Positions 1,119 through 27,326 of a stretch of DNA of 27,326 nucleotides are shown one piece after another. Under the pieces are notes generated by a model. It worked only from the letters and a program-made list of their open reading frames with translations. It ran no database searches and was not told the origin of the DNA. Within the stretch, counting starts at the first letter, position 1; each line of letters starts with the position of its first letter. Origin of the DNA: Clostridia bacterium (GTDB lineage Bacteria > Bacillota_A > Clostridia > Oscillospirales > CAG-382); assembly GCA_017517985.1 (NCBI GenBank), contig JAFWWX010000397.1, positions 1 to 27,326 of the forward strand. The letters run 5' to 3'. The translations under genes and the position numbers were made by a program.

Positions 1119-1829
1119 TCAGCTATTCAGCCACATCTGAAGTATAGCCGTTGCATCCATAAAGTCAACCCTGCCATCTTTGTTTACATCGCCCGCAACG
1201 CTCTGGTATTCTGTAAGAGTAATTGAGCCCATAAATGACTGGAGTGCCATAGTTGCATCTATAAAGTCAACAGTCTTATTTTCGTTAATGTCGCCGAGTA
1301 AAATAGTCTTTTCCACAACATCTGTCGTGCCGTTATTCTTTGTAACTGTTACAGTTTCGCCGGCAGCATTATATATTTCATCTATAATTTCAACGGCAAA
1401 AGCATTGTTCGCAGTAGCCTGCGCCGGAGCTTCAAAGCTTACACTAAAAAGCTCTCCCGACTCATTCTCAATATCATAAAGAGATGCTCCTACAAAGGTG
1501 ATTGTTCTGGAAGTCTCATCGTGATAGAAAGCATAGGTTTCACCTGCATAGCCTGCAAAATCAAGGTAGCACTTTTCCGATATTATTGCAGATACCGCGC
1601 TGCTGTCCTCAACATAAGTAAATCCCTCCGGATAGGTGAGCGTTACACCAAGAGTATTAAATCCGGTATTTGCCGAAAATTCAACAGTAGCGACAAACTC
1701 CTTACCAACCGCCACAGACTGTGGCACATCTACAGAAACAGTAATACCGTTTCCAGCGGCTGCAGCAGTAACGCAGAAGCAACCTACAAATATAATAACG
1801 CTTACTATAACACAAAACAGCTTTTTCAT
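1119..1829 (-). CDS. Small secreted protein: cohesin-like domain plus type I dockerin
   Basis: A 236-residue secreted protein. Residues 1-25 are a signal peptide (Lys-Lys, hydrophobic core, AAAA end). Residues ~29-163 form a beta-rich domain with the look of the cohesin/CBM fold (VDVPQSVAVGKEF, then alternating strands); this assignment is weaker. The C-terminal ~58 residues are a clear type I dockerin: two calcium-loop plus helix repeats, GDINENKTVDFIDATMALQ and GDVNKDGRVDFMDATAILQ, with Asp/Asn at calcium positions and the DFxDA turn. Dockerins bind cohesins and so attach a protein to a scaffold. The start is taken at 1829 because GGAAG sits just before it; the ATG 21 bp upstream (1850) has no ribosome site. 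A protein with both a cohesin-like and a dockerin domain could be an adaptor. No catalytic domain is visible. Confidence 0.85.
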   Translation of the reverse strand: MKKLFCVIVSVIIFVGCFCVTAAAAGNGITVSVDVPQSVAVGKEFVATVEFSANTGFNTLGVTLTYPEGFTYVEDSSAVSAIISEKCYLDFAGYAGETYAFYHDETSRTITFVGASLYDIENESGELFSVSFEAPAQATANNAFAVEIIDEIYNAAGETVTVTKNNGTTDVVEKTILLGDINENKTVDFIDATMALQSFMGSITLTEYQSVAGDVNKDGRVDFMDATAILQMWLNS

Positions 1830-1914
1830 CTTTCTTCCATTCCTTTCCATAAAAAGGTTTGATATATTCTAAATATTTGGCGAATATTATCTAGTTAAAC
1901 ATATAACTACTTTT

Positions 1915-1943
1915 ATTATACATTACTTTCTCAATAAAATCAA
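1915..1943 (-). promoter_or_regulatory. Sigma-A type promoter of the cohesin-like/dockerin gene
   Basis: Minus-strand -35 TTGATT (1938-1943), 17-bp spacer, -10 TATAAT (1915-1920). It lies about 85 bp upstream of the chosen start at 1829, so the gene is probably its own unit although it follows the GLUG/dockerin gene in the same direction. Confidence 0.65.
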
Positions 1944-2023
1944 GAGGTTTATGGAATTTTATAATATTTCTCCCAGGTTTTACAAAACGCAAAAGAAAAT
2001 CACTCAATTACATATAGCCGAAC

Positions 2024-3445
2024 CTACGACCCAATACTCGCACCCTTGCCTCTAAGATACCTCATAAAAGCATTAAGGTCAGAAATGCTGTACTCATCGT
2101 CACCGTCAAAATCAATGTTGGACATTTTAAAATTCTGCACACTCTTTTTATTTATAAAAATCTCAAGAGTATCAATTAAATCCTGGGCGGTAACCCGGCC
2201 CGTACCATCAGAGTCACCAAATACATTCAAGAAAGGAGCTACAACACCGGTCGCTCCACTCCAGACCTTTGAAAAATCAAAGTTTTTAAAATTATCCGAA
2301 TCAAACATACCATCCGTTGTCAGAAGTCTGCTTGTGCCGGAGTTTACAGTACCATTTGATACGCCACACAAATCTTCTGCGCTATTATCACTGACAACAC
2401 TGTTTATAATATCAATAATAACATTTTTATCTTCATGGTTATCAGGACCTGCAATACCGGTAATACCACCAAGACTTTCTTTGGTGGAGGTAATTTTACC
2501 GGAGTTAATACAGTTTTGCAACAGAAGTGCAATTTTTCTACCGTTTAGGTCTGAAGTAAAGTCCTCTGTTGACCCGACAATACCACCGGTACCTTTATCA
2601 CCGCTAATATTCCCTGTATTAATACAATCAAGAAATTTTACAGCATAATTTCCGTCGTCCTTATATACTACACCATAAGCTGAGGCAAGACCTGCAATAC
2701 CGCCCACACTGCTTTTGGTTGAAGAAACCGCACCATCAAAGGAGCAGTACTGAACAATTGCCTTTTTTGTATAGCTCTCAAGCTGTCCGACAATACCGCC
2801 CACGTTGATTGATCCATTAACAACACAGTTTTCAGCTTTGCAACCGCTTATGTACACTGTGGAGGAAGATGCTCTTGAATGACCTACAAAAACGCCGGTA
2901 TTTTTCCCTCCGTTGACATATGAGTACTTTATACCAAGGTTTTTAATCTGCCCATTGTATAAATACCCAAACAGTCCAGTGTCATTATTATCCGAATCAA
3001 CATACATACCGTAAATATCGTAATGTCCGCCGTCAAAATAGCCAGCAAAGCCTTTTATTATATAATTTACCGTAGCACCGCCGGGCGACCACTCATTTTC
3101 CGGTGGCTGTGTTTCCCACTCATAGAAATCTGTAATGTCATTAAGTACAATATCATTTGTCATTCTATAATATTTACCTGCGGTATTCTGATATGTTTCA
3201 GAAACCGTGTCATTTATATTCTTGGAGAGCAGTGCAAGATGTGAACCGTCAGAAACAAGGTACGGACTTTCCTTTGTCCCATCACCACCGGCAAAGGAGT
3301 CGGCAACAGTTCCATCCCAAACCGGAAGATTTGGTATATAGTCAACAGTTTTTTCCGCCTCTTTGGCAAAAGAAACAAAAGATGCGGATATGAGAATCAG
3401 CAAAAAAACTATTGCTGACCTTATCAGCCTTTTAATTCCGACCAT
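2024..3445 (-). CDS. Secreted GLUG-repeat protein with C-terminal dockerin
   Basis: A 473-residue secreted protein. Residues 1-27 are a signal peptide (VGIKRLIRS, then a long hydrophobic run). Residues ~40-100 contain the FAGGDGTKESPYLVSD-type motif common ahead of GLUG repeats. Residues ~155-335 carry spaced GLUG-like motifs (TGLFGYL, VGGIVGQL, VGGIAGLA, TGGIVGST, LGGITGIA), typical of adhesin or parallel beta-helix surface proteins. Residues ~409-466 form a dockerin-like pair: FGDSDGTGRVTAQDLIDTLE and IDFDGDDEYSISDLNAFMR. The start at 3443-3445 has an excellent GGGGGAGG site; the open frame extends 48 codons upstream but that region contains the promoter. Probable role: dockerin-attached adhesin or binding protein. 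No enzyme motif is seen. No clear terminator follows the stop. Confidence 0.85.
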   Translation of the reverse strand: MVGIKRLIRSAIVFLLILISASFVSFAKEAEKTVDYIPNLPVWDGTVADSFAGGDGTKESPYLVSDGSHLALLSKNINDTVSETYQNTAGKYYRMTNDIVLNDITDFYEWETQPPENEWSPGGATVNYIIKGFAGYFDGGHYDIYGMYVDSDNNDTGLFGYLYNGQIKNLGIKYSYVNGGKNTGVFVGHSRASSSTVYISGCKAENCVVNGSINVGGIVGQLESYTKKAIVQYCSFDGAVSSTKSSVGGIAGLASAYGVVYKDDGNYAVKFLDCINTGNISGDKGTGGIVGSTEDFTSDLNGRKIALLLQNCINSGKITSTKESLGGITGIAGPDNHEDKNVIIDIINSVVSDNSAEDLCGVSNGTVNSGTSRLLTTDGMFDSDNFKNFDFSKVWSGATGVVAPFLNVFGDSDGTGRVTAQDLIDTLEIFINKKSVQNFKMSNIDFDGDDEYSISDLNAFMRYLRGKGASIGS

Positions 3446-3536
3446 ATTTTCCTCCCCCTCTTGTTTTTCTGCAACGCATCCCGAAATTGAACCAATTTTA
3501 TCAAATTGGGAAAACACGCAATGTATATACACTTTA

Positions 3537-3565
3537 ATTATAACAGTATTCGACCTTATTGTCAA
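3537..3565 (-). promoter_or_regulatory. Consensus sigma-A promoter of the GLUG/dockerin gene
   Basis: Minus-strand TTGACA (3560-3565), 17-bp spacer, TATAAT (3537-3542): both boxes match consensus exactly. The leader is about 85 nt. It lies inside the longer open frame, which supports the internal start at 3445. Confidence 0.85.
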
Positions 3566-3630
3566 TCTATTTCTTTTTGGTTTTTGCAAAATAAAAAACG
3601 CAACCCTTTTCGGATGGCGTCCACTTATAC

Positions 3631-3664
3631 AAAGAACCCCTCGGCTGTTACACCGAGGGGCTTT
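3631..3664 (-). terminator. Terminator of the S-layer gene
   Basis: Stem CCCCTCGG (3637-3644) with CCGAGGGG (3653-3660), extended by AAAG/CTTT at the base and followed on the minus strand by TTCTTTGT. It lies 33 bp past the stop of the SLH gene and upstream of the next promoter. Confidence 0.8.
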
Positions 3665-3696
3665 GAATTATTCGATTAATTAATCTTTATTAGAGA

Positions 3697-6600
3697 TTAG
3701 TCACGAACGATTACAGCAAAGTTGATGTTGTATACAGTTTCATCATCATCAGAAGCCTTAACGTCTTCTTCGATGCAGAGGAATACTCTGAGAGCGTTTG
3801 TCTTTTCGCTAAGATATCTGTATGTCTTGGATGTAGAACCAAGGATAGATGCATCAACTGTCTGGATTGTTTCAGCGGAGAGGTCGAGGAAGGATACAGC
3901 TGTATCATCAGTTACCTTGAGGATATCGCTGTTGCCCTCAACTTCAAGGAAGCCTGTTGTTTCGTCGTATTCAACAACTTCTACCCAACCGAGGTCTGTG
4001 AGGGTTTCAAATGTGTCATCAACGTCGTAAACTTCACCGTCTACCTTGCTCATTGCAACGGAACCAGCTGCTTCGCCGCTATTGTCGATGTAACCTTCTG
4101 TTGTAAGACCAACGATATCACCAGCTACGAAAGGTGTGTTGTCATCTGTTTCAGCAGCTTCGATGCTGGATTCTGTAGCTCCTGTGAAGGGGTTAAATAC
4201 ATCGTAGATGTAGAGAGAACCGTCTTCTGTGTTGATTCTGGAGTAACCCTTAACGATTCTAACGTCAGCAACTTCACCGGGATCGCCTGTGAGCTCTGTG
4301 TTGAGTTCGCCGTAGAATACTACGAGGTTTTCAGAGTTTCTGGAGCTTGTGTTGTTCATAAGAACGTAGGATACGTTTGTGAATGTGTGGTTTTCGTTGA
4401 TGTTGGGAAGGTTGTCAGCACCGTAAAGTGTTACAACTGTATCGCCGTTTTCGTCAAGGGACTTGATGATGATCTGTGTGTAATCCTTAACGTATACGCC
4501 ACGGAGACCGTTTACATTAGCGTCTGCATCAGCATCTTCGATAACGTAGAGGTTGCCGGACTTCTTTGTGAGCTTAGCAGAAACGCCTGTCTGTCTGTAT
4601 TCGTTAGCTGCTTCTTCTCTGTCAGCGAGACCTGCAAATGCTGTATCATCAGCGTACTTGCCGAAGTCAACGAGCTGGAAGTAGTAAGCACCGTTCTTGT
4701 CAGACTTACCTGTAGCGAGCTTGCCTACATAGTCAGAGAAATCATATGTTTCAGAATCGAGGTCGTATGTTGCGGGAGTTTCAACGAAGCGGTCGCCGTC
4801 AACGTCCTTATCTTCAGCGATCTTCTTAGCCTTAACAGCCTTGATTTCGCCGCCGTTGTAGATTTCGATGTAGTCAGCCTTTTCAAGCTTGCCATCGATC
4901 ATTGTTGTTGTTGTTGTAACGTCTGCGTCGAGTACAACTACCCAGTTTTCGTTAACGTTGATTGCGGATTCAAGACCCTTAACGTATACGAGCTTGCCGT
5001 TAGCTGCGAAGAAGTATGTTGCTTCTGCGTCGAAGTTAACATCTGCTTCTGCATCAACAGCTGCGAGACCTGTAGCACCGTTAACAACTACAGCCTGAGC
5101 ATCCTTGTAGTAAATCTTTTCGCCTGTAGCGAGAGCGAAGTACTTGCTTGCCTGAGATGTGATGGAAGCGTCCTTACCTGTAAGAACTTCTGCAACCTTT
5201 ACATAGTTAGCAGCAGCGTTAACGTATGCAAGAACGATGTCCTTGTCTTCAGCTTCAGCGCCTTCAACGATGGACTTGTCTGTGTAGATAACAACATTTG
5301 CAACAGCGTCTGTAGCGTCGAAAGTATCTACTTCATCGTACATTCTGCTGTCTTCTTCAGTTTCGATTGTACCTACTGTGTAGTTCTTAACGAAGAGGTA
5401 GTCGGGCTTGCCGTTACCGTCACAGTCATATACATCGATTTCACCGAGACCGCCGTAGTATACCTGAGAGAGGTATCCGTTGTAATCAAGTGCCCAACCG
5501 TCTACATCATCATAAGTAGCACCGATGAGAGAGTCGTCCATATCCTGAGCGTCAAGAACATAGCTGAAGTTAACATCTACAACGTCTTCTTCAACATCTC
5601 TGCCATCATCAAATTCACCGAGAGTGATGAACTGTGCATTGTACTTCTGTGTATCCTGATCCTTAGCGAAAGAATAGGGAGCGTCAAAGAGATATGTTAC
5701 AGTGTCACCAAGTGTGAGCTTACCGCTAATCATCTTGTATTCCTTGTCTTCGCCGTCATAGTACTTTTCAGCTGCTGTGCCGGAAACTGTGCCGAACTTA
5801 ACGTCTTCAAAGCTTACTGTTTCCTTTGTACCTGTAGCTGTAGCACCAAATACTTCGTATTCGCCGTCAACTTCCTTAACGAACATAACGATGTCAGAGA
5901 GGAAGTAGTCATCAGCCTTGCCTTCGAGACCGAGAGCTGCAAATTCAACCTGGCCGAGGGAAGGAATGTCTGTTTCGTAGTCTGCGTAGTCGATTACGTA
6001 GTCTGCAGAAAGTGTGAGCATTTCTACGTCTTCATCAGGCATTTCATTGCCTTCGAAGCTGTAGTTAGGAGTAGCAACTACTCTCTGGCTAACCTTTTCT
6101 ACTTCAAAGATCTTTTCAGCAACTGTCTTGTGGTATTCAACAGGAACCTGGCCGTTGGATACGATGTGGGGGTTGCCCTGAGAGTCTTCAACTTCGATCC
6201 AAGTAGATTCGTACTTGATTTCTACTTCAGCTGTTTCAGCATAGAACATATTAGCAAGGATGATTGCGAGATCGCCTCTTGTAAGTGTGTCTGTGTAGCC
6301 GAGTGTAGCGGGAAGATCAGCATCGAGTTCGAGTTCTTCAGCCTTGGAGATGTAGCCGATCGGGTAAGCGAGTGTGCCGTCGTCATAACCGAGTGCACGA
6401 ACGATCATTGTGTAAGCATCCTGAAGTGTGATGCCACCCTTAGGATTGAATGTTGTGTCGCTTGTTCCCTTGATGATGCCCTGGCTGTTAGCCCAAGAAA
6501 TCATAAAGAAGAATGTGGGATCTTCGAGGTCCACGAAAGTAGTGTTGTTAGTGCCACCTTCAACGGTCTTGCCTGCCTTCATCATTCTGTAGATGAATGC

Positions 6601-6810
6601 TGCCATCTGTTCTCTTGTTACGTTGTTAGCTGTACCGAATTCTGTTTCGGAAACACCCTTTGTAACGTTGAGAGCCGCGAGGAGTTCAACTGCATCTGTG
6701 AGAGCTTCGTTGGAAGCGTCAACGTCAGCGAACTTTGCTGCGGATGCACTTGTAGCGATTGCGCTTACAGAAAGAAGAGCTGCTACTACGAGTGAAAGGA
6801 ACTTTTTCAT
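3697..6810 (-). CDS. Large S-layer protein with three N-terminal SLH domains
   Basis: A 1037-residue exported, very acidic protein. Residues 1-24 are a signal peptide ending SASA. Three SLH domains follow at about 26-80 (KFADVDAS...GVSETEFG...NVTREQMAAFIYRM), 91-145 (TFVDLEDP...IIKGTSDTTFNP) and 146-195. SLH domains bind pyruvylated secondary wall polymer and hold the protein on the cell wall. The remaining ~840 residues (Asp/Glu/Val/Thr/Tyr-rich, few Cys) match no family I recognise, which is usual for S-layer assembly regions. A perfect AGGAGG (6819-6824) precedes the start, and a promoter and terminator bracket it as a single-gene unit. Size, acidity and expression signals suggest the main S-layer protein; this is inference. 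The opposite strand is open for a long stretch, which is a codon-bias shadow. Confidence 0.9.
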   Translation of the reverse strand: MKKFLSLVVAALLSVSAIATSASAAKFADVDASNEALTDAVELLAALNVTKGVSETEFGTANNVTREQMAAFIYRMMKAGKTVEGGTNNTTFVDLEDPTFFFMISWANSQGIIKGTSDTTFNPKGGITLQDAYTMIVRALGYDDGTLAYPIGYISKAEELELDADLPATLGYTDTLTRGDLAIILANMFYAETAEVEIKYESTWIEVEDSQGNPHIVSNGQVPVEYHKTVAEKIFEVEKVSQRVVATPNYSFEGNEMPDEDVEMLTLSADYVIDYADYETDIPSLGQVEFAALGLEGKADDYFLSDIVMFVKEVDGEYEVFGATATGTKETVSFEDVKFGTVSGTAAEKYYDGEDKEYKMISGKLTLGDTVTYLFDAPYSFAKDQDTQKYNAQFITLGEFDDGRDVEEDVVDVNFSYVLDAQDMDDSLIGATYDDVDGWALDYNGYLSQVYYGGLGEIDVYDCDGNGKPDYLFVKNYTVGTIETEEDSRMYDEVDTFDATDAVANVVIYTDKSIVEGAEAEDKDIVLAYVNAAANYVKVAEVLTGKDASITSQASKYFALATGEKIYYKDAQAVVVNGATGLAAVDAEADVNFDAEATYFFAANGKLVYVKGLESAINVNENWVVVLDADVTTTTTMIDGKLEKADYIEIYNGGEIKAVKAKKIAEDKDVDGDRFVETPATYDLDSETYDFSDYVGKLATGKSDKNGAYYFQLVDFGKYADDTAFAGLADREEAANEYRQTGVSAKLTKKSGNLYVIEDADADANVNGLRGVYVKDYTQIIIKSLDENGDTVVTLYGADNLPNINENHTFTNVSYVLMNNTSSRNSENLVVFYGELNTELTGDPGEVADVRIVKGYSRINTEDGSLYIYDVFNPFTGATESSIEAAETDDNTPFVAGDIVGLTTEGYIDNSGEAAGSVAMSKVDGEVYDVDDTFETLTDLGWVEVVEYDETTGFLEVEGNSDILKVTDDTAVSFLDLSAETIQTVDASILGSTSKTYRYLSEKTNALRVFLCIEEDVKASDDDETVYNINFAVIVRD

Positions 6811-10857: not shown

Positions 10858-11231
10858 AATAAAAAAATCACCCTCGCATTGTTACGGAACATTCAGCTTG
10901 GAAAAATTCCGTCTAATGAGGGCGAATATATCGCGGTACCACCTCAGTTCGCTCCTTTCTCACAAAAGAAGCCTTTTCAGGTACTCGAAAGCAAACGCGT
11001 TTTGTTTTCGGTTATACCCTTACGCTTTTACGGGCGAACCCGTTACGCCTTCCTCTGGATTTCTGTGATACCCGGTATGAGTACATAAGAAATACAAGCT
11101 CTGCGTACTGCTCGCGGAATGTATTCAGAAAAATCACCGTGTCTGTCTTGCACCACCCGACAGCTCTCTTTACACCTTCAGAAAATTTCCTACTTCTTTC
11201 CGGTCGTCGCATTTGTCTTATTAAAAAAGAT
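10858..11231 (-). promoter_or_regulatory. T-box leader (tRNA-sensing riboswitch), specifier probably UAC (Tyr)
   Basis: Read on the minus strand. Stem I starts near CGACCGGAA. The loop E motif AGTA (11191-11194) faces GAA (11124-11126), followed by UAC (11121-11123) and a purine A (11120), closed by the CGGAA/TTCCG helix. The GA motif AGAGAG and a distal loop GGGTGGTGCAA (flanked by CTGTC/GACAG) follow. The canonical T-box is TGAGGTGGTACCGCGA (10931-10946); UGGU would pair with an ACCA tRNA end, fitting the A discriminator of tRNA-Tyr. The terminator pairs CCCTCATT..ACGGAA with TTCCGT..AATG.GAGGG (10871-10923), then TGATTTTTTTATT. Uncharged tRNA should favour the antiterminator. The specifier is inferred by hand; ACA or AUA are less likely readings. 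Confidence 0.93.
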
Positions 11232-12075: not shown

Positions 12076-12133
12076 TTATATCACTTTCTGGCGGTATTGT
12101 CAAGAGATAAAAGAACAAATATTCGGATTTTGC

Positions 12134-12162
12134 TTGATTTTTTAACAAATTTGTGGTATAAT
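12134..12162 (+). promoter_or_regulatory. Extended -10 promoter of the lysis cassette
   Basis: TTGATT (12134-12139), 17-bp spacer, TGGTATAAT with -10 TATAAT (12157-12162). The TGn extension adds strength. The start of transcription, near 12169, falls inside the palindrome at 12166-12189, so a repressor bound there would block it. Confidence 0.8.
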
Positions 12163-12165
12163 AGA

Positions 12166-12189
12166 ACTATAGAACATATGTTCTATAGT
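12166..12189 (+). promoter_or_regulatory. LexA-like operator (SOS box) in a 24-bp perfect palindrome
   Basis: The palindrome is exact over 24 bp and centred on GAACATATGTTC (12172-12183). This fits the Gram-positive LexA pattern GAAC-RNRY-GTTY; only the outer C/G of the Bacillus consensus are replaced by A/T. An extra GAAC half-site lies at 12164-12167. Its place over the transcription start is typical for repression. LexA itself is not encoded in the window. Confidence 0.75.
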
Positions 12190-12267
12190 CGCCTGTCCCA
12201 CGGCGAAAACCAACGTCTCTGTCCGCAAAAGAGAGCATCAATACAGTAAAAATACGAAAGGACTAAA

Positions 12268-12579
12268 ATGGAGGAATTTATAGCAAAATACTGGCTTGAA
12301 GTTCTGTTTGGCGCAGTAATTGCAATGTGTACCCGACTCTCGGTAAAGTTAAAAGCAAAAAAGAATGAAAATAAGTGCCTTAAAAGTGCAATATGTGCAT
12401 TACTGCGAGACAGAATAATAGTCATATACAACAGATACACAGAAAAGGAATACTTCCCTATTCACGAGAGGGAAAATCTTTGTCATCTTACATCGGAATA
12501 CTACGCTCTTGGTGGTAACGGAATAGTCAGAGAGCTTGAGGCAAGACTCTGCGATCTTCCCACATCGCCGGAAAAATAA
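12268..12579 (+). CDS. Phage-type small membrane protein of the lysis cassette (holin-associated)
   Basis: A 103-residue protein with one N-terminal hydrophobic helix (about residues 8-25), a basic stretch (KLKAKK) and a soluble tail. The tail ALLRDRIIVIYNRYTEKEYFPI plus YYALGGNGIVRELEARL and LPTSPEK resembles, from memory, small proteins often encoded just before the endolysin or holin in clostridial prophages. Its exact role is not known; it could be a holin, antiholin or accessory protein. AAAGGA precedes the ATG at 12268. It is the first gene of a three-gene plus-strand unit behind the LexA-like operator, 47 bp ahead of the amidase gene. Confidence 0.7.
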   Translation: MEEFIAKYWLEVLFGAVIAMCTRLSVKLKAKKNENKCLKSAICALLRDRIIVIYNRYTEKEYFPIHERENLCHLTSEYYALGGNGIVRELEARLCDLPTSPEK

Positions 12580-12626
12580 AAAAACACCGCGAAAACTACA
12601 TATTATATAAATAAGGAGAAAGAAAT

Positions 12627-13391
12627 TTGGCAAGACTCACACCGGATTCAATGTATAAAATAAATAACCTTACAGTTAATGTAAAAAAAATCCCCTTTGG
12701 TACAAGATGGGAAAAGGACAGCGCCGGCTTTAAAAAGGGAGATTTGTATAAAGCTGACAGGCTTATGACGAACGGAACAGGAAAAGTGCTTGGGATAACA
12801 ATTCATAATACAGGTAACAGTGCCGATGCCGAGACCTATACAAGAGCTACCTTCAATCAGAATATGAACAGCTCGAGGGTGCATTTTTATGTAGATGACT
12901 TTGAGGCGTGGCAGAATCTTGAGGAGAACGAGGTCGGCTGGCACGCAGGCACCGGTGACAGAAGCACAGGTAACGACAGCTATATAGCTATTGAAATAAT
13001 AATGGGAGGCGAAGGGAACGATTCTGACAGAAAAGCCGAAGAAAACGGCGCGTTGCTGACGGCGCATTTGCTGAACAAGTACGGACTTACTGTCGAAAAT
13101 GTCGTAACCCATAAGCACTGGTCAGGCAAGAACTGCCCCATTTACATACTGCCCCATTGGGAGAAGTTTATTGCTCTTGTGAAAAAGTATCAGACAGAGC
13201 TTATGGCGGAAAAAGACGAAAACATAATACACACGCCCGACAACACCCCCGACGAATATGCAAAGGATGCTGTAAAAAGGGCTCTGGAGAAGAAGATTAT
13301 AATAGGCGACAACCTTGGCGACCTCAGACTTCATTCGGCGCTCACCCGTCAGGACTTTGCGGTGATTCTGTCAAGGCTTGGACTTATATAA
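12627..13391 (+). CDS. N-acetylmuramoyl-L-alanine amidase (Amidase_2 endolysin) with SLH-like tail
   Basis: A 254-residue peptidoglycan amidase that cleaves the MurNAc-L-Ala bond. The Amidase_2/PGRP fold shows GITIHNTG (zinc ligand His60), the VHFYVD strand, VGWHAG, AIEI (Glu123) and HWSGKNCP (His164, Lys168, Cys170). There is no signal peptide, so export would depend on a holin. Residues ~211-254 (YAKDAVKRALEKKIIIGD...ALTRQDFAVILSRLGLI) resemble a single SLH motif, which may bind the wall polymer. The start is a TTG at 12627-12629, chosen because AAGGAG (12613-12618) is 8 nt upstream; the first ATG (codon 9) has no ribosome site. It sits between two small membrane proteins, as in phage lysis modules. 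TTG initiation may keep its level low. Confidence 0.9.
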   Translation: MARLTPDSMYKINNLTVNVKKIPFGTRWEKDSAGFKKGDLYKADRLMTNGTGKVLGITIHNTGNSADAETYTRATFNQNMNSSRVHFYVDDFEAWQNLEENEVGWHAGTGDRSTGNDSYIAIEIIMGGEGNDSDRKAEENGALLTAHLLNKYGLTVENVVTHKHWSGKNCPIYILPHWEKFIALVKKYQTELMAEKDENIIHTPDNTPDEYAKDAVKRALEKKIIIGDNLGDLRLHSALTRQDFAVILSRLGLI

Positions 13392-13421
13392 AAATCTATA
13401 TAAATAATTAAGGAGTAAAAT

Positions 13422-13634
13422 ATGAACTATAAAGATTTGATACGAAAACTTTCATCAAGAAAATTCTGGGCGTGTGTGTGCGGTTTTGCCACCTCTGTTA
13501 TGGCGATGTACAACTTCAGCGAGGACAGAGTAGCCCTTGTAACATCCCTTATCACCTCTGCAGGATGCCTTATCGCATATATTTTATCCGAGGGGAATGT
13601 TGATGCAGCAAACAGCAAGAAGAATGAAGAATGA
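13422..13634 (+). CDS. Phage-type holin
   Basis: A 70-residue membrane protein with a basic N-terminus (KDLIRKLSSRKFW), two hydrophobic segments (about residues 14-30 and 37-55) and a charged, Asn/Lys/Glu-rich tail. This is the usual layout of small phage holins, which pierce the membrane and release the amidase. AGGAG (13411-13415) precedes the ATG, 30 bp after the amidase stop. The family within the holin group cannot be fixed by eye. Confidence 0.8.
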   Translation: MNYKDLIRKLSSRKFWACVCGFATSVMAMYNFSEDRVALVTSLITSAGCLIAYILSEGNVDAANSKKNEE

Positions 13635-13701
13635 TTTTAATTGATAACTATGAATTTTACGGGATAATCCCCCTAAATTACCTTCCGTGACACTACCTTC
13701 A

Positions 13702-13718
13702 TTTAAGGAAACCTTAAA
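13702..13718 (+). other. Small perfect hairpin after the holin gene
   Basis: TTTAAGG-AAA-CCTTAAA lies in the 136-bp spacer between the holin stop and the terminator. The 3-nt loop matches the mini-hairpins at 11805-12075. There is no T-run, so it is not a terminator by itself. Confidence 0.45.
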
Positions 13719-13770
13719 TCGCCGTATATTCTTCACTTGGCCACCATACATTTTCAGTAAGACAAAAAAA

Positions 13771-13796
13771 CAGAGGCGTACCGATGTGCGTCTCTG
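13771..13796. terminator. Bidirectional terminator between lysis cassette and beta-helix/dockerin gene
   Basis: An 11-bp stem (13771-13781 with 13786-13796) with loop CGAT is flanked by an A7 run and a T5 run. The two imperfect pairs are G-U wobbles in the plus-strand RNA, so it is best for the lysis transcript. On the minus strand it is followed by TTTTTTT and lies 22 bp past the dockerin gene stop, so it can serve both convergent units. Confidence 0.85.
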
Positions 13797-13817
13797 TTTT
13801 TATTATTCTGGCAGTTT

Positions 13818-15803
13818 TTATTTGTTTGAAAAACCAAAGTTTTTCTTGATAATTGCAAGGTCAGTAACACCAACCGAACCATCTTCGTCAAGGTCAACTA
13901 ATTTTATATATGGTTTATCCGCATCGTTTTCGATATTTTTACTGAAGCCTCTGATAAGTCTTATATAGTCTTCAATATCAACAATACCGTCACCGGCATC
14001 ATCTTTATAGCTTGCCTTGATGTCGCCGTGACCAGCCACGAAGTTTGCACCCAAACTTCCGATTTCGGTGGCTCTATAAGTCTCATCATCCAGGAAGTCC
14101 GCGGTGTCAACCTCTACAGAAACACTTGCATAACCGTTCTTGACAAGAACAAGACGAATTTTTTCGCCATAGAAATCCTCATTAAAGGCTGTGTATTGCT
14201 CGCTGACACCAAGAGTTAATGTTCCGTCTTCACCGGTACGAGAGCCGGCATTTTCAAGCTTTGCCTCTCCAAGTATGTTTCCGACAGTATCTTTAATTAC
14301 AAGCTTTAATTCGTTACCTGCAATCGGAGTTCCCGAACTTCTGCCGAGTGTAACCACTACATCTGTAAGGTCAATAGCTCCTACTTTTGCCAAAGGCTCG
14401 CCACTGAAGATTACTTCTGTCGGAGTGTTGCCTGAATTCATAGCTGAAGCCGACACGGTTTGTGTTTTTTCACCGTTTGTGTTTAATGTATATTCAGTTC
14501 CGTTTACGGTAACCTTTCTGTTGTCGGATGTAAATTTGAACTTAAGCTCACCTGATTCAACTACAACATCAATATAATCGTCTTTATCATCGCCACTGCA
14601 GTTCAATATGTAGTCATGGTAGCTGTTGAATTTGTTTTTATATGTGCTTCCCTGTTCTCCAATCTCTCCATATTGTCCAGCGTAAGAACCATTTGCGAAT
14701 ACAAGAATATTCTTTTCGGAGGTGTTTTTAGATCCAAGACGGCTTCCTGCAAAAACACCAATGTTCATATCAGACTCAGTAACAAGGTTAACATTGGGTC
14801 CAATTATAAGGGTTGTTGTACCATTTACATAATTACTTGATTCATAGGAACCAAACAAACTCACTTCATTATAACAACCCGAATAAACTCGTCTTGTTAC
14901 TTCACCGCCGGTAAGTGTAATATGAGTATTGCCGGTTAGCGTTCCGCCGGCAACTGCATTACCACCGAAAATACCTTCAACCGTACCGCCAGTCATTGTA
15001 ATATTGGTGTTGACTACTGCGCCACTACCTGTTTGTCCGCCGCCACCAAAGACATTATCATCTACCGTACCGCCGGAAATATTTATGTTGGTTGTGCAAC
15101 TTTGAAGATTAACGCCGTTACCTGTACCATAAATAAATTTTGCAGTTCCGCCGTTAAAGTTGATATTTGTTGATTTTGTTACTGCACCGCCATTACCGCC
15201 ACCAAATATCTCATCACAACTAGCATTTCCGCCAAATGTAACATTTGTGCTTCCGGTGACTCTATAACCATTTCCGCAGCCACCGTAAACATCACCGGTT
15301 ATCTTTGTGTTGCCCAATATCGTTACATTTGTGTCTCCTTTGATGTGCCTTATTCCGCCACCGTATATATTAGCGTATGTTCCGCTGTGTATTTCGATGT
15401 TTGTATTTCCGGGTATATCCTGACTTTTATCTCCCTCGATTTTTCCGCCGTATATTGTAAGTGCAGATGATGTAACAACATTATCACCAATATATAGCGG
15501 GTAATAATCGGCAAATATTGGGTATTCGCTTTGAATCGTAATGTTCTCGATTATCAATGCACGGTCGAGAAGGATTCCTGTCGTATCTCTTGCTGCTGTT
15601 TCGTTATCAAGTACAAGAACAGCACCGTTTCCGCCACCCGCAATATGCAATGCTCCGGTTGGATAATCTTCAAGAACTTCGCTGTAATTTGTGTTACCTG
15701 TAATTACCACTTCTGTATATTCCTGCGCCATAGCGGAGCTACAGAGCGCAAGGCAGGCAAAAATTGCACTAAAAATTAAGAATCTAAATCCAAGCTTTTT
15801 CAT
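13818..15803 (-). CDS. Secreted beta-helix-like repeat protein with C-terminal dockerin
   Basis: A 661-residue secreted protein. Residues 1-26 are a signal peptide (ends SSAMA). Residues ~112-310 consist of about eight degenerate repeats of ~25 residues of the type T-N-I-x-I-x-G-G-T-x(4)-I-F-G-G-G-x-G, for example TNINISGGTVDDNVFGGGG, suggesting a right-handed beta-helix or solenoid. Residues ~470-590 are a beta-sandwich-like module resembling the one before the dockerin in the 25053-27326 protein. Residues ~591-661 are the dockerin: DDAGDGIVDIEDYIRLIRGF and DLDEDGSVGVTDLAIIKKNF. No catalytic residues are recognised; an adhesin or glycan-binding role is inferred. AAAGGAC precedes the ATG at 15801-15803. 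Confidence 0.88.
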   Translation of the reverse strand: MKKLGFRFLIFSAIFACLALCSSAMAQEYTEVVITGNTNYSEVLEDYPTGALHIAGGGNGAVLVLDNETAARDTTGILLDRALIIENITIQSEYPIFADYYPLYIGDNVVTSSALTIYGGKIEGDKSQDIPGNTNIEIHSGTYANIYGGGIRHIKGDTNVTILGNTKITGDVYGGCGNGYRVTGSTNVTFGGNASCDEIFGGGNGGAVTKSTNINFNGGTAKFIYGTGNGVNLQSCTTNINISGGTVDDNVFGGGGQTGSGAVVNTNITMTGGTVEGIFGGNAVAGGTLTGNTHITLTGGEVTRRVYSGCYNEVSLFGSYESSNYVNGTTTLIIGPNVNLVTESDMNIGVFAGSRLGSKNTSEKNILVFANGSYAGQYGEIGEQGSTYKNKFNSYHDYILNCSGDDKDDYIDVVVESGELKFKFTSDNRKVTVNGTEYTLNTNGEKTQTVSASAMNSGNTPTEVIFSGEPLAKVGAIDLTDVVVTLGRSSGTPIAGNELKLVIKDTVGNILGEAKLENAGSRTGEDGTLTLGVSEQYTAFNEDFYGEKIRLVLVKNGYASVSVEVDTADFLDDETYRATEIGSLGANFVAGHGDIKASYKDDAGDGIVDIEDYIRLIRGFSKNIENDADKPYIKLVDLDEDGSVGVTDLAIIKKNFGFSNK

Positions 15804-22748: not shown

Positions 22749-24746
22749 TTACTTTGTAAGTGCATCCTGAGTTCTTACAAATACAGCCGCAGCCTGAGCT
22801 CTGATTGAAATTCCACCAGGAACAAGAGTTGTGGGTGACATACCATTGATAATACCTCTGCCACATACCCACTTCATAGCCTCAACAGCGTAAGGAGATA
22901 CCGCAGAGTAGTCCTCGTATGCGCTCACATCTGCAAGGGTTGTCATATCTGCGTTAGTGTAGCTTGCATATCTGTAAACCATTGCCGCCATCTGCTCACG
23001 GGTGATGTTGTTGTTGGGAGCAAACTCTGTCGGTGATACACCGTTTACGATGCCGTTTGCACTTGCCCAAGCAACTGCCTTATCGTACCAGCTGCCTGCT
23101 TCAACGTCTGTGAACTTCTCGTTACCGTTGTTTGCAGGTTCACCTGCCATTCTATAGAGAACAGTTACAAACATAGCTCTTGTTACATTGCCATTAGGAT
23201 TAAATTCGGATTCTGATGTACCCTTCATAAGTCCTCTTGCGTATGCTTCTGTAACAGACTCGTAGTACCATTCTTCTTCCTTAATATCCACAAAGGGATT
23301 AACAACCACTGTGCTCTTATACTGTGCATAGAATGTGGTTGTAGACTTGATTTCAACTGTTGTCGGATCAACAGCTGTGCCGTCATTTGTTGCCCAGCCA
23401 ATAAATTCATAGCCTTCGTTAGCCTTAACTGTAGGAACATTTGTGGGCTTTTCTCCATCCTTTACCTTCTCGGTTTTGCTTCCGCTAATCATTGTACCGT
23501 TAGCACCAACCTGATATGTTACAACATAGTTCAAAGGCTCGGAAGGAGTCTCAGCAGCGCCACCGCCGCCACCGCCACCGCCATTTGAACCACTTGTAGG
23601 TGTTGCAGTCTTTTCATCGGAGTATTCGCCTTCGCCAATTGCGTTGACAGCCTTAACCTTAATTGTATACTCTACACCACCGGTAAGTCCTTCAAGCGCA
23701 AGTCTTGTTGTGCTTGCGTCATTAATTGTTTCAGTCTGTTCAGTTCCGTTCTTCTCTGTGTAGCTTACAACATAGCCTGTAATATTTGAACCGCCTGTCA
23801 TTTCCGGCTTTGTCCAAGTTACAGTAAGTTTTTCCTTTCCGGCAGAAACACTGGGTGTATCCATCTTTTCAGGAGCAGAGATAATTGCATCTGTACCGTC
23901 TTCAAGTGTCATATAGTCATCGCTCTCGGAAAGCTTATAGTATACAGCGTAGTCCTCGCCGCTTACCTCAAATGCAACCTCACCCTTTGCGTTTGTCTGA
24001 TTTTCTTCAGAGCCTATTTTAACGAAAGCACCCTCAACCGGAGTTCCGTCTGCGTAGGTTACATTGATTATAACAGTTTCTGTTTCATCTTCAATGTCAA
24101 GACCCTCAAATGCGACAGAGAGATAAATTCTGTTCTTTGCATTGTCCGAGTTTCTGAACGCTTCTGTTTCTTCATTTCCACAGTAAACGCCGGATTTATA
24201 TCCTTTTATGCTTGTGTTTGAGGGTGTATCGGAAGCAAACTTAATAAGGTCTGTGCCTGCATCCTCAAGGTCTTCTACCTCAACACCGTCTGCAGTAACA
24301 AACTTGATAGTGAGAATTTTTACATCCTCATCTTCTGCTTCGACATAATAGGCACCATTAGCATACCACGCAAAGTAAAACTCGCCGTCTTCCTCATTAA
24401 CAAGGTTAGAAACCCTGTTTGATTCAGCTGTAGGAACAACAGCAGATAACGCACTCTTAACAAAGCTTGTGATATTAAGACCGCTTATATCGTAATCAGA
24501 GGTAACCTCTCCGCTGATTGTTGCAGCAAGATCAAGAAGCTCTGTATCATAATAGAGACCCAGCTGACCTACTCCACCGCGACCACCTGTTACATAAATA
24601 TCAGAGGTGATAACACCAGTTTCTTCATCATAGGTGTTCACCATCTTGTAGCCGGGAGTTGTTCCCTTTGCCGCATAAACAGCAAGAGAGCCCGCTGTAA
24701 GTGTCAGCGCAAGAAACGCCGCAGCAATTTTCTTTGTAAAATTCAT
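22749..24746 (-). CDS. Surface protein: cohesin-like domain, Fn3, InlB-type repeat, three C-terminal SLH domains
   Basis: A 665-residue exported protein. Residues 1-26 are a signal peptide. Residues ~30-215 form a cohesin/CBM-like beta-sandwich (VGQLGLYYDTELLDL...FYFAWYANGAYY...LTIKFVTADG); this call is by pattern only. Residues ~223-290 are a carboxypeptidase-regulatory-like fold, ~297-384 a fibronectin type III domain (LTVTWTKPEMTGGSNITGY...YTIKVKAVNAIGEGEYS), then a Gly9 linker, ~406-480 an InlB B-repeat (GYEFIGWATNDG), and ~485-665 three SLH domains (FVDIKEEEWYYE, FTDVEAGSWYDKAVAW, final WVCGRGIINGMSP). The SLH domains anchor it to the wall polymer; the N-terminus would face outward. If the cohesin call is right it could hold dockerin proteins on the surface. 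AAAGGATG precedes the ATG. Confidence 0.88.
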   Translation of the reverse strand: MNFTKKIAAAFLALTLTAGSLAVYAAKGTTPGYKMVNTYDEETGVITSDIYVTGGRGGVGQLGLYYDTELLDLAATISGEVTSDYDISGLNITSFVKSALSAVVPTAESNRVSNLVNEEDGEFYFAWYANGAYYVEAEDEDVKILTIKFVTADGVEVEDLEDAGTDLIKFASDTPSNTSIKGYKSGVYCGNEETEAFRNSDNAKNRIYLSVAFEGLDIEDETETVIINVTYADGTPVEGAFVKIGSEENQTNAKGEVAFEVSGEDYAVYYKLSESDDYMTLEDGTDAIISAPEKMDTPSVSAGKEKLTVTWTKPEMTGGSNITGYVVSYTEKNGTEQTETINDASTTRLALEGLTGGVEYTIKVKAVNAIGEGEYSDEKTATPTSGSNGGGGGGGGAAETPSEPLNYVVTYQVGANGTMISGSKTEKVKDGEKPTNVPTVKANEGYEFIGWATNDGTAVDPTTVEIKSTTTFYAQYKSTVVVNPFVDIKEEEWYYESVTEAYARGLMKGTSESEFNPNGNVTRAMFVTVLYRMAGEPANNGNEKFTDVEAGSWYDKAVAWASANGIVNGVSPTEFAPNNNITREQMAAMVYRYASYTNADMTTLADVSAYEDYSAVSPYAVEAMKWVCGRGIINGMSPTTLVPGGISIRAQAAAVFVRTQDALTK

Positions 24747-24881
24747 ACTTTTACCATCCTTTCATAAAACGGGAGTGTGTACCTGAAAAGGCACATAAAA
24801 TTCATCATCAGACTTAATTACATAAAACGCCAAAACTCCCGAAGAAATATCCTTTTGCGCAAAAAGCATATAACCGCTTCA

Positions 24882-24959
24882 ACGCAGTAAAACCGACACC
24901 GTAATTCATATGCTGTCAGCTTTACTGCGTCGGGGGAACATTTCTGCTCCCCTGACGCA
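24882..24959 (-). ncRNA. Structured 5' leader of the SLH/cohesin-like gene (candidate cis-regulatory RNA)
   Basis: The 306-bp gap 24747-25052 has no gene. In the minus-strand RNA, 24914-24930 pairs with 24882-24898 over 17 bp without a mismatch; the two non-Watson-Crick pairs are G-U wobbles that would be mismatches on the other strand. A second hairpin (24926-24937 with 24948-24959) shares five bases with it, so the two compete in part. Nearer the gene, CGGGAGT (24770-24776) can pair with ACTCCCG (24835-24841), and TTTTGCGCAAAA (24853-24864) is a palindrome. It does not fit a riboswitch class I recognise. No clear promoter was seen in the gap. Confidence 0.45.
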
Positions 24960-24995
24960 TTTTCTGATATTTCAAACAATTTAATATTTACAGTA

Positions 24996-25019
24996 TTGGG
25001 GAGAGTCGCCCCTCCCCAA
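24996..25019 (-). terminator. Probable terminator of the large dockerin gene
   Basis: Perfect 8-bp stem TTGGGGAG/CTCCCCAA (24996-25003 with 25012-25019) 33 bp past the stop codon. The minus-strand tail TACTGTAAATATT is poor in T, so termination may be partial and allow read-through into the SLH/cohesin-like gene. Confidence 0.5.
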
Positions 25020-25052
25020 CACTTTTTATTTATGCTGTGAAAATCAGTTTAA

Positions 25053-27326
25053 TTATCTTGTTTCGCCGTAATTGCTCTTTACAAATGCAAGGTCAAATAC
25101 TGTTACCTCGCCGTCTTCATCAACGTCAACAAGTCCGTTGTAATCAGCATCCGCGAGAAGATCTGCGTATCCTGTGTTGTCGCTGCCTTCTTCAAATGCA
25201 CGAACAATTCTTGCGAAGTCGTAAAGGTTGATTACATTGTCGTCGCCAACATTATTGATTCCGTAAACGTTACCTGCAACACCTGTGAGTTCAACTTCGC
25301 TTGTTTCGTCGTAAACAACTGTGAATTCATCAGATGTTTCAGCAAGGTAGCCGTTCTTTTCGAATACTACTGTGTAGTCGCCTGCAAGAACATCTTCAAA
25401 TGTTGCAACGAATGTGTCGCCTGCTTCTGTTCCTTCAGTAACTGTATCAACTACTTCGCCTTCAGCATCAACAAGCTTAATTGTACCGAAGTTCTTGTAA
25501 GCAGCGTCTGCAGCATCTCTTACGAGTGCAACTTCAACTGTAACTGTACCGAGTTCTTCAGCTGTCTTTTCGAATGTGTAGCTGATTACTAATGTATCGC
25601 CGTCTCTGGATACAAGAGTTGCAGTTTCGCCGTTAATTGTGTATGTGGTTTCGCCGGAGAATGTATAGCCTTCTTCCGCCTTAACTGTTACTGTAACGGT
25701 GTATGCTGTGTCAAATTCAAATTCATCAGCTGCAGGAGTCCATTCAACCTTTTCAACTGTGTAGGTTTCATCACCTGCTACAGCGTCAAGGTCGGGTGTT
25801 TCGCCTGCTACGGGTTCATCAATACCTGTAATTACAACTGCTTCAACTGCAGGGAGGTATGTGAATATGATTACAACATCGCCGAGAACTTCTTCACCAG
25901 GGATGATGTATGTTACGCCATCATCTTCAGCTACAAGTGCGCCCTTAGATACGCCTGCTACTGTGTAGGAAACTGTTGCGGGAGTTTCACCTTCAGCAGT
26001 TGTAACTGTGAATGTGATATCTGTAAGCATTATTCCTTCTGTTTCGAGACCTTCAACTGTTGTAATGTCAGCATCTACGCCTTCAGTTGTGATTGCAATA
26101 ACATTGTTATCAACAAGTGCTGTGAATGTGATGGGATAGATTATTTCTGTGGGGTCGAAGCTGGTAGCATCATTCTTAATGAACTGCCATTCGCCGTTTT
26201 CAAATGCACCTGCGATATCAGCTGCAGGAGCGTACTTACCAAAGTCTGTTGCGGGATCGAACTCTGCATACTTTTCTGCTGTCATATCAGCTGTGAATGT
26301 ACCAACAAGAACGGGAGTCTTGAGGTCATCACCGAAGAAGTTGCCTGTTGTAGACCATGCAACGTCTGCAATGTAGCCTTCGCCGGATACAGCATTTGTG
26401 CCTGTTGTCATGAAAGCGTCATCATATGCGAATGTGAGGTTTTCAAGGATTTCTGTGTCGTACTGAACACCAAATGCTGTCATGTTAGCCTGGGGTCCTT
26501 CGTAGTACATATCAATTGTGTACTTTTCATTTGCAACGTCGAAACGACCTTCAAATGTGTAGGAAGCATCTTCAACAGCAACTGCTTCTCTGATTACATA
26601 AAGTGTAATAGGTGCGTTAACTGTAATCTTTTCGCCTGCTGCGTATTCAGCTACTGTTGCTCCTTCATCTGCTGCAAAGCCAAGTACTCTTGTTCCAAGA
26701 ACTCGTTCGGGTGTGGGAAGTGTATACTGTGTGCCTTCGTAAACATATTCGCTAGCGATTGTATCGTCACCGTCATAGATTACAACTGCATGCTCAGGAA
26801 TATCATCCCAAACTGCTGTAAGTGTTACATCACCTGTAAGTTCGAATGTATCGCCAGGCTGATATGTTGTTGTACCGTCAGACCAGCCTTCGAATGTGAA
26901 GCCGTCAACTGCTGCAGGAGCGTCTGCTACTGTGATTGTTGTGCCTTCGTCTTCTGTAACTGCTGCAGGAGCTGCACCCTTAGCGTTTTCATAAGTTACT
27001 GTGTACTGTTCAACTGCGGGAGCTGCGAGTGTCAGAGATGTTGTGTTTGCCTGCCACTTGCCATCTTCTGTTCCATCAGGAAGAACGTACATTGTTGTTG
27101 CATTTCCTGAAGCTTCAAGAATGCTAAAGTTACATGTACCACTCGCGCCTTCAACGAGTGTGAACTGAGCCTGAAGGAGAGTACCCTCGATAGAATATGT
27201 GGGATCAGTAGCCGCAAAACTTGCAACAATGTCTCCCCTGGAATTCAAAGAAATACTATCATAGGTTGATTCAAATTCTTCGTCATCATTGTACACAAAA
27301 AATGATTTTTTCTTGCCTGTCTGATA
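25053..27326 (-). CDS. Large surface protein with cohesin-like and InlB-type repeats and C-terminal dockerin; N-terminus beyond window
   Basis: At least 757 residues; the frame stays open to the window edge (YQTGKKKSFFVYNDDEEF at the edge), so the GTG at 27294-27296 is not the real start and the signal peptide is missing. In order: the end of a cohesin-like domain (GTLLQAQFTLVEGASG), two InlB-type repeats (YTVTYENAKG...FTFEGWSDG and VVIYDGDD...), another cohesin-like domain (FGVQYDTEILENLTFAYDD), a beta module, an MBG-like segment (AYTVTVTVKAEEGYTFSGE), and a pre-dockerin beta-sandwich. The last ~75 residues are a dockerin: NNVGDDNVINLYDFARIVRA and DVDEDGEVTVFDLAFVKSNY. The acidic composition resembles the S-layer protein. 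Probable role: surface adhesin or scaffold part; no enzyme motif is visible. Confidence 0.85.
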   Translation of the reverse strand, partial: YQTGKKKSFFVYNDDEEFESTYDSISLNSRGDIVASFAATDPTYSIEGTLLQAQFTLVEGASGTCNFSILEASGNATTMYVLPDGTEDGKWQANTTSLTLAAPAVEQYTVTYENAKGAAPAAVTEDEGTTITVADAPAAVDGFTFEGWSDGTTTYQPGDTFELTGDVTLTAVWDDIPEHAVVIYDGDDTIASEYVYEGTQYTLPTPERVLGTRVLGFAADEGATVAEYAAGEKITVNAPITLYVIREAVAVEDASYTFEGRFDVANEKYTIDMYYEGPQANMTAFGVQYDTEILENLTFAYDDAFMTTGTNAVSGEGYIADVAWSTTGNFFGDDLKTPVLVGTFTADMTAEKYAEFDPATDFGKYAPAADIAGAFENGEWQFIKNDATSFDPTEIIYPITFTALVDNNVIAITTEGVDADITTVEGLETEGIMLTDITFTVTTAEGETPATVSYTVAGVSKGALVAEDDGVTYIIPGEEVLGDVVIIFTYLPAVEAVVITGIDEPVAGETPDLDAVAGDETYTVEKVEWTPAADEFEFDTAYTVTVTVKAEEGYTFSGETTYTINGETATLVSRDGDTLVISYTFEKTAEELGTVTVEVALVRDAADAAYKNFGTIKLVDAEGEVVDTVTEGTEAGDTFVATFEDVLAGDYTVVFEKNGYLAETSDEFTVVYDETSEVELTGVAGNVYGINNVGDDNVINLYDFARIVRAFEEGSDNTGYADLLADADYNGLVDVDEDGEVTVFDLAFVKSNYGETR

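Follow-up and report, generated by a model that had tools for sequence, protein, structure and literature searches.

A LexA-boxed lysis cassette in Clostridia and its possible place in a split, gene transfer agent-like element

Layout of the lysis cassette

The stretch of DNA analysed here (the window; 27,326 nucleotides, positions 1 to 27,326 of the forward strand of contig JAFWWX010000397.1, Clostridia bacterium assembly GCA_017517985.1) carries a lysis cassette on its plus strand at 12113-13801, made up of a LexA/SOS-type box, a promoter, a second box, three intact genes and a terminator-like stem. Open reading frame 1 (ORF1; 12268-12579, plus strand) encodes a phage-type lysis-module protein of 103 residues, assigned to phrog_4105, with a long helix at residues 2-60. 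The second gene (12627-13391, plus strand, TTG start) encodes the endolysin, an Amidase_2 N-acetylmuramoyl-L-alanine amidase without a signal peptide, and the third (13422-13634, plus strand) a holin-like membrane protein of 70 residues with a weak profile match. An intrinsic-terminator-like stem-loop of 16 pairs with a T run follows on the same strand (13766-13801). The initial annotation had described a complete three-gene lysis module with its own promoter, operator and terminator, and the reading frames do lie where it placed them, the identity of the holin being weak by profile.

Both genes flanking the cassette are on the minus strand: one is YlbF-like (Com_YlbF, 73.3 bits) and the other encodes a 661-residue protein with a dockerin match below the cut-off. 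Seventeen selected proteins of the window matched 32 PHROG families at E 1e-5, and neither an integrase nor a capsid family is among the 25 of these that were listed. Outside the cassette, a DnaC-like helicase loader is matched, as is a single "major tail protein" family (1.9e-14).

The cassette promoter and its boxes

The promoter is of the sigma-70 type (TTGATT-17-TATAAT, 12134-12162, plus strand, with the -10 at 12157-12162), with 10 of 12 matches and a TG before the -10. A LexA/SOS-type box stands on either side of it. The downstream box, GAACATATGTTC (12172-12183, plus strand, 9 nt after the -10), is strict; the upstream box, GAACAAATATTC (12113-12124, plus strand, 9 nt before the -35), has one mismatch to GAACNNNNGTTC and had been missed in the initial annotation. 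Although GAACATATGTTC is the sole strict box in the window, it is weak evidence when taken alone, because at least one strict box also occurs in 36 of 100 shuffled windows. The upstream box and promoter at the observed spacing occur once in the window and in none of 400 Markov-resampled windows.

The endolysin, used as a single-protein query that detects close relatives only, gave two loci at 71-72% identity in a genome collection covering 84,980 species. These are L001 in Oscillospiraceae bacterium SIG622 (genome G001) and L002 in Clostridia bacterium RGIG7291 from water buffalo cecum (genome G002), the only two genomes of the nearest genus that we examined. In both, all three genes are present in order behind a two-box promoter. 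In the cassette promoters of both genomes, the 12-mer GAACAAATATTC precedes the -35 at the same place, and the downstream box has a strict counterpart in G002 (GAACATAAGTTC) and a one-mismatch counterpart in G001 (GAACTTATATTC). Boxes also occur at genes of the SOS response itself: in G001 and G002 the lexA promoter is followed by a one-mismatch box (GTACAAATGTTC and GCACAGATGTTC), a Y-family DNA polymerase gene has one-mismatch boxes in both genomes, with the exact GAACAAATATTC in G002, and the same 12-mer is found at the uvrB promoter of genome G186 (names of the polymerase gene and uvrB read from open reading frames). The cassette thus has a LexA-type operator at a promoter that is conserved in its relatives. 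Because the boxes recur at cassette promoters, lexA, the polymerase gene and the G186 uvrB, we regard control of the cassette by LexA and the SOS response, with the boxes as putative operators, as well supported, though not proved. The apparent SOS control of the initial annotation is to that extent upheld.

The three cassette proteins

The endolysin scores 70.9 bits against Amidase_2 (cut-off 26), and its top PHROG match is phrog_15001 at 1.4e-51. The best 19-residue Kyte-Doolittle window at its N-terminus scores 0.03, so no hydrophobic segment is present there. Residues H60, H162, K168 and C170, which we take to be the catalytic set of T7-lysozyme-like amidases, are all present and are invariant across 34 sequences. 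An endolysin that lacks a signal peptide and keeps its key residues is what is expected in a phage-type lysis cassette. By both profile and predicted fold, its nearest relative is XlyA (35% identity, Foldseek E 1.2e-13; model predicted local distance difference test [pLDDT] score 82), presumably the amidase of PBSX. The C-terminal tail, which we had assumed to be SLH-like, has no profile match to support this.

ORF1 matches phrog_4105 at 8.6e-18. The protein is weakly membrane-like, with a best hydropathy window of 1.56 at residue 4, and its model is a 59-residue helix followed by two short helices (pLDDT 87), with no match in the PDB at E 0.001. It is probably a holin or an antiholin partner, and in phage contigs its type adjoins the holin type. 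The third protein has a best hydropathy window of 2.12; its PHROG match, to phrog_9987 (E 0.024), is weak, and neither Pfam (E 0.001) nor NCBIfam (E 1) has a family that matches it. As this profile match alone is weak, we call the protein holin-like because it has homologues in viral contigs, part of which adjoin endolysins or ORF1-type genes. Of the loci compared, seven have all three protein types together, namely the window, L001, L002, three further copies of the L001 and L002 places, and a phage contig (L138). Elsewhere the types are found in pairs, ORF1 with the holin type at 14 loci, the holin type with the lysin at 14 and ORF1 with the lysin at nine.

Relatives, selection and chromosomal setting

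Cassette proteins of the window share 62-75% amino-acid identity with those of G001 and G002. None of the genes has an internal stop, and the ratio of nonsynonymous to synonymous change (pN/pS) for the three genes among the three genomes is 0.21-0.34. These values indicate that the genes are under purifying selection but, with synonymous change at or near saturation, do not give its exact strength. The earlier view that the intact frames reflect selection agrees with these values.

Close relatives of the cassette are few in the genomes sampled. A near cassette (E below 1e-100) was found in two of 63 genomes of the family, whose completeness is not stated, with two further remote and partial matches. 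At the level of the order, 28 of 394 genomes have remote amidase matches at E 1e-20, with only G001 and G002 near, and 24 of 394 match the ORF1 profile at E 1e-8, with the same two far ahead. In a sample of the class, the amidase profile at E 1e-45 found one genome of 391, G001 itself. The protein database holds at least 36 near relatives of the amidase (at least 96% of its length covered at 53% identity or better), counted among the best 120 of 559. The initial annotation had named absence or frameshifts in most relatives as evidence that would speak against domestication; the frames are intact in all three genomes, but a near cassette was found in just two of the 63 family genomes.

The 50,697 phage records contain no relative of ORF1 or of the endolysin above 60%. 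Among viral contigs, lysin relatives at 40-42% identity were found in five loci (again a single-protein query); ORF1 reaches no more than 53% among the best 80 of 282 loci, and the holin type no more than 52% among the best 80 of 145.

The cassette lies beside ylbF in the window and in G001, where this upstream neighbor is 84% identical; its upstream neighbors in G002 are rpsR, ssb and rpsF. In G001, the cassette is about 31 kb from dnaA, on a 46-kb contig that also carries mreB, dnaN, recF and gyrB (all of these names were read from open reading frames). We recognised no phage gene on this contig when its reading frames were inspected by eye (at least 60 residues over the first 19 kb, at least 130 over the whole contig). 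The description of the cassette as free-standing and chromosomal is supported.

We considered whether the cassette is the edge of a larger prophage. This was ruled out by the lack of integrase and capsid families among those listed for the window, together with the G001 contig, where no phage gene was recognised by eye and the cassette is at no recognisable prophage edge. A related possibility is that it is the last lysis module of a decayed prophage, now without function. All three protein types do have phage relatives, among them an amidase at 55% in Faecalibacterium phage Mushu, and the order ORF1-lysin-holin is found in phage contig L138. A decayed remnant, however, would not be expected to persist as a complete cassette behind a like boxed promoter in three genomes at 62-75% identity with the pN/pS values given above, nor to stand with no phage gene recognised beside it in the window, among the families listed, or by eye on the G001 contig, and we consider this explanation improbable.

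A further locus, L041 (G280 C303:6671-8357), has an ORF1-type protein, a small membrane protein and an amidase between an lgt-like gene and other chromosomal genes (names read from open reading frames). No strict SOS box was found in the stretch of it that was read.

An unlinked head and packaging operon

A genome-wide search for strict boxes returned 13 sites in G001 and five in the 3.1-Mb genome of G002. In G001 four of these sites, and in G002 three, cluster within 180 bases upstream of a single terminase operon. Another of the five G002 sites is in the cassette promoter, so that the cassette promoter and the start of this operon together account for four of the five strict boxes of that genome. 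The reversed pattern occurs 161 and 235 times in G001 and G002; strict GAACNNNNGTTC sites are rare by comparison, a scarcity that looks like avoidance outside operators. G002 has a third such arrangement of box and promoter (L332, C14:5828), close to a contig end.

The operon (G001 C138:30407-41690; G002 C26:54743-65322) is 10-11 kb long and unlinked to the cassette. It encodes a zinc-finger-like protein, the small and large terminase subunits (TerS and TerL), a P22-like portal, a scaffold-like protein, a further head candidate, the capsid, two smaller proteins, and proteins of about 610 and 365 residues. Family matches in G002 are GP3_package for TerS (52.5 bits), Terminase_3 for TerL (48.8), P22_portal (59.2) and Phage_capsid_4 (32.3, cut-off 27). 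The packaging and head genes are of podovirus type, and there are candidates for neck or tail proteins. In both genomes the operon stands behind a box-promoter-box switch of the same arrangement as that of the cassette. As for phage structural genes, the earlier remark on their absence nearby agrees with the window, but head genes are present elsewhere in the genomes of its relatives.

Between G001 and G002 the capsid is 90% identical (pN/pS 0.11), the portal 70%, the 610-residue protein 52% and the 365-residue protein 48%. The flanks largely match as well, with HAD- and DHH-type genes upstream and a class II aldolase (99%) and a 580-residue protein (78%) downstream (names read from open reading frames); in G001 a gene for a 1026-residue protein lies between the HAD and DHH genes and the operon, and there are some extra genes. 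Relatives among known phages are scarce. In the 50,697 phage records the portal matches four only, at 21-26% identity, and the capsid and the 365-residue protein match none; in viral contigs the capsid was found in one short contig (76%) and the portal in two (52% and 70%).

We recognised no integrase, replication or lysis gene beside the operon in G001 and G002. The flanks were also scanned more widely, with 64 of 72 listed flanking reading frames around 11 head blocks compared with PHROG at E 1e-10 as proteins of at least 140 residues. Eleven families were matched, two of them esterases, with one each for a methyltransferase, a RuvC-like resolvase, an acetyltransferase and a clamp loader, and five nameless; no integrase, tail, lysis or repressor family is among the six named. 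Head and packaging genes without recognised replication or integration genes, as in a gene transfer agent (GTA), are thus present in the relatives, within the flanking proteins of the scanned size.

The operon could instead be part of a satellite that forms capsids, or of a prophage without a tail, either of which would obtain tails and lysis from elsewhere; the cassette would then serve an unrelated helper. Capsid-forming chromosomal islands that use the tails of a helper exist, and the lack of a certain tail gene in the operon would suit such an element. The absence of integrase and repressor families among the named matches of the 64 flanking proteins (at least 140 residues) speaks against it, as do the largely shared chromosomal location of the operon in two species and their 90% capsid identity, and we think this alternative unlikely, if less so than a prophage remnant.

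Spread of the head operon

A portal match at E 1e-50 or better was found in 24 of 394 genomes of the order, with 22 more at E 1e-5. At the level of the family, 15 of 63 genomes are positive, all at E 1.7e-198 or better. Of the 22 strongly matching genomes of the order other than G001 and G002, 20 were taken as regions (all but G236 and G245). The gene order is kept in 12 genomes (G001, G002 and loci L308-L317), with single genes unrecognised in some, most of them in L315-L317; the capsids of L308-L317 are 57-75% identical to that of G002, and one further gene of the operon (g318) was compared across loci by position, size and eye. Remote portal loci have 33-38% identity. Flanking genes differ among the eight head-operon loci listed, and are largely alike only between G001 and G002.

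We searched 24 loci for boxes from 420 bases before to 60 bases after the start of the first gene, which was found in 13 loci (the 12 genomes and viral contig L306) and not in 11. At least one strict box is at the operon start in 12 of the 13, the other (L317) having a one-mismatch box only; shuffling predicts 0.07-0.20 boxes of up to one mismatch at such starts. Among the 11 loci without a recognised first gene, the sole one-mismatch box is in L320. One of these loci, L307, ends at a contig end, with no first gene recognised and no strict box.

Boxed promoters and a second type of lysis cassette

The promoter arrangement was generalised to the pattern GAACNNNNRTTC-N8-10-TTGAC (box-N8-10-TTGAC) and run on 12 of the 24 genomes with a strong portal match. 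It has 23 sites there, against nine for the reversed control. Eleven of the sites are head operons (one in every genome except G359), two are amidase cassettes, one is a cassette of an M23 peptidase and a holin, one is uvrB, two are unassigned promoters and six are others.

The M23 cassette, in genome G049, consists of a boxed gene for an M23 peptidase (84.8 bits) that has no apparent signal peptide, with a gene for a Phage_holin_4_1 protein (109.3 bits) after it. It lies between genes read as chromosomal in a genome that also has the head operon, and its proteins belong to other families than those of the amidase cassette, behind the same box-promoter arrangement. We see this as the best hint of a partnership between head operon and lysis cassette.

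In genome G057, a LexA-type box and promoter (L354, C43, promoter at 2402 of the reversed locus) precede a 502-residue protein and then small reading frames. The protein has no Pfam match over 475 residues; its C-terminal part looks lysozyme-like to the eye.

The cassette as one arm of a GTA-like element

We propose that a domesticated, phage-derived and LexA-controlled element of the GTA type has been split and that the cassette is its lysis arm, and, judging from the comparisons above, we would put the probability of this at roughly 0.6. LexA binding of the boxes, the joint action of the two loci, the formation of particles and their cargo of host DNA are parts that we infer. DNA damage would activate RecA, LexA would be cleaved, and both boxes around the cassette promoter would be vacated. 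The same event would free the box-promoter-box switch of the unlinked operon, whose terminase, portal, scaffold and capsid proteins would build a small head like that of a podovirus, to be filled with host DNA; host DNA is the proposed cargo because we recognised no element that has its own replication or integration genes. Once the holin-like proteins had opened the membrane, the amidase, which lacks a signal peptide, could pass, and the cell would burst and release the particles.

An alternative proposal is a stand-alone SOS suicide or release module that frees DNA, vesicles, enzymes or bacteriocins from a fraction of damaged cells, the head operon of the relatives being a separate matter. 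The window shows the cassette alone, the ranges differ (two of 63 family genomes for the cassette, 15 of 63 for the head operon), and lysis genes of other elements free other cargo. Against this, both genomes with the cassette (two of two) also hold the boxed head operon, and the two places hold four of the five strict boxes of G002. We regard a stand-alone module as doubtful, while giving it more weight than any other alternative considered here. The initial annotation had proposed the release of bacteriocins, vesicles or public goods, which is no longer favoured as the most specific purpose. Because both relatives hold an unlinked head operon with the same LexA-type promoter arrangement, release of DNA-packing particles would be the more specific reading.

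Several observations weigh against the proposal of a split GTA-like element. The head operon of the window's own genome is a prediction from relatives. No certain tail gene was identified in the operon, and head particles without a tail may not inject DNA. The cassette changes place, from beside ylbF in the window and G001 to beside rpsR-ssb-rpsF in G002. As for the boxes, the cassette promoter of G001 has no strict one and lies about 0.8 kb from ORF1, no box was seen at uvrB of G001 or G002 within the stretch read, a TATAAT-plus-box pattern shows no enrichment (10 sites, 12 in the control), and L318-L327 have no strict box, the operon start not being recognised there. As for the partnership, 13 of the 15 portal-positive family genomes have no match to this amidase at E 1e-20; a search for boxed promoters in seven of these 13 found a boxed lysis cassette in one, G049, and by the same pattern none was found in three portal-positive genomes outside the family. 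The nine pattern-negative genomes may have a lysis cassette with imperfect boxes, or none.

The 0.8-kb stretch between promoter and ORF1 in G001 (L001 7090-7880) appears repeat-like to the eye.

Comparison with known systems

The nearest published case is FpGTA of Faecalibacterium, described in January 2026, with a 10.5-kb head operon, an unlinked 5.5-kb tail and lysis operon, and particles of about 40 nm that pack 8.4-8.9 kb of host DNA (Nat Commun 2026, PMC12946183). Its capsid is RCH50849.1 and its portal RCH50851.1 (PMC12946183). Common to both are two unlinked operons, podovirus-like TerS, TerL, portal, scaffold and capsid genes in about 10 kb, a separate holin-endolysin locus, clostridial gut bacteria as hosts and the lack of replication genes (PMC12946183). 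FpGTA operon II, however, also has baseplate, tail fibre and receptor-binding genes (PMC12946183), whereas the cassette locus here is lysis only. The word "LexA" has no occurrence in the main text, though the discussion calls GTAs inducible through the SOS response (PMC12946183). The likeness is one of description rather than sequence, and the remote portal loci (33-38%) may or may not include FpGTA. FpGTA is the only clostridial GTA with identified genes that our literature search found; LexA boxes on a clostridial GTA were not mentioned in the titles and abstract openings listed for GTAs, SOS or LexA, and lysis, a set that takes in few subscription papers and preprints.

The lysis module of phage contig L138 has a phrog_4105-type protein, an amidase and a holin in the same order as the cassette, with an extra small reading frame between amidase and holin. 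It lies among tail-like genes, whereas the cassette of the window is alone behind a LexA-type switch. PBSX of Bacillus subtilis resembles the proposed element in that XlyA is the nearest solved relative of the endolysin. PBSX is induced by DNA damage and packs host DNA; it differs in that it is a defective prophage in a single piece, which includes a repressor and lysis genes of its own.

RcGTA of Rhodobacter capsulatus is siphovirus-like and alphaproteobacterial. Its structural genes and lysis cassette are under separate promoters with one common regulator, the activator GafA, which binds both, and LexA acts through CckA (PMC6363796). Activation there is by GafA and CtrA (PMC6363796), whereas the shared signal in the present case would be a LexA-type operator.

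Other features of the window

Long proteins that look secreted to the eye surround the cassette (window 1119-6810, 13818-15803 and 22749-27296). Two of them were scanned, one having SLH and fn3 domains and the other a sub-threshold dockerin match. A T-box leader (RF00230, 97.7 bits) at 10915-11216 on the minus strand is upstream of a sodium:solute symporter gene, with an AMP-binding enzyme gene further downstream.

Significance

The element proposed here would not be a wholly new kind of system. What appears to be new is a direct LexA-type operator on both arms, together with lysis genes that seem to be exchangeable. In a broader form of the proposal, on which we are evenly divided, a widespread and vertically inherited GTA lineage in uncultured gut Clostridia would be wired to the SOS response through a LexA-boxed capsid operon and an unlinked LexA-boxed lysis cassette, with the lysis enzymes exchanged and the switch and partnership kept. 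GTAs outside the Alphaproteobacteria are few. If the proposal is correct, a direct LexA operator on capsid operon and lysis cassette would explain the timing of particle production, box-N8-10-TTGAC would be a sequence signature by which the scattered parts of such elements could be found in the genomes that carry them, and gene exchange in gut and rumen bacteria would be tied to DNA damage, for example by antibiotics.

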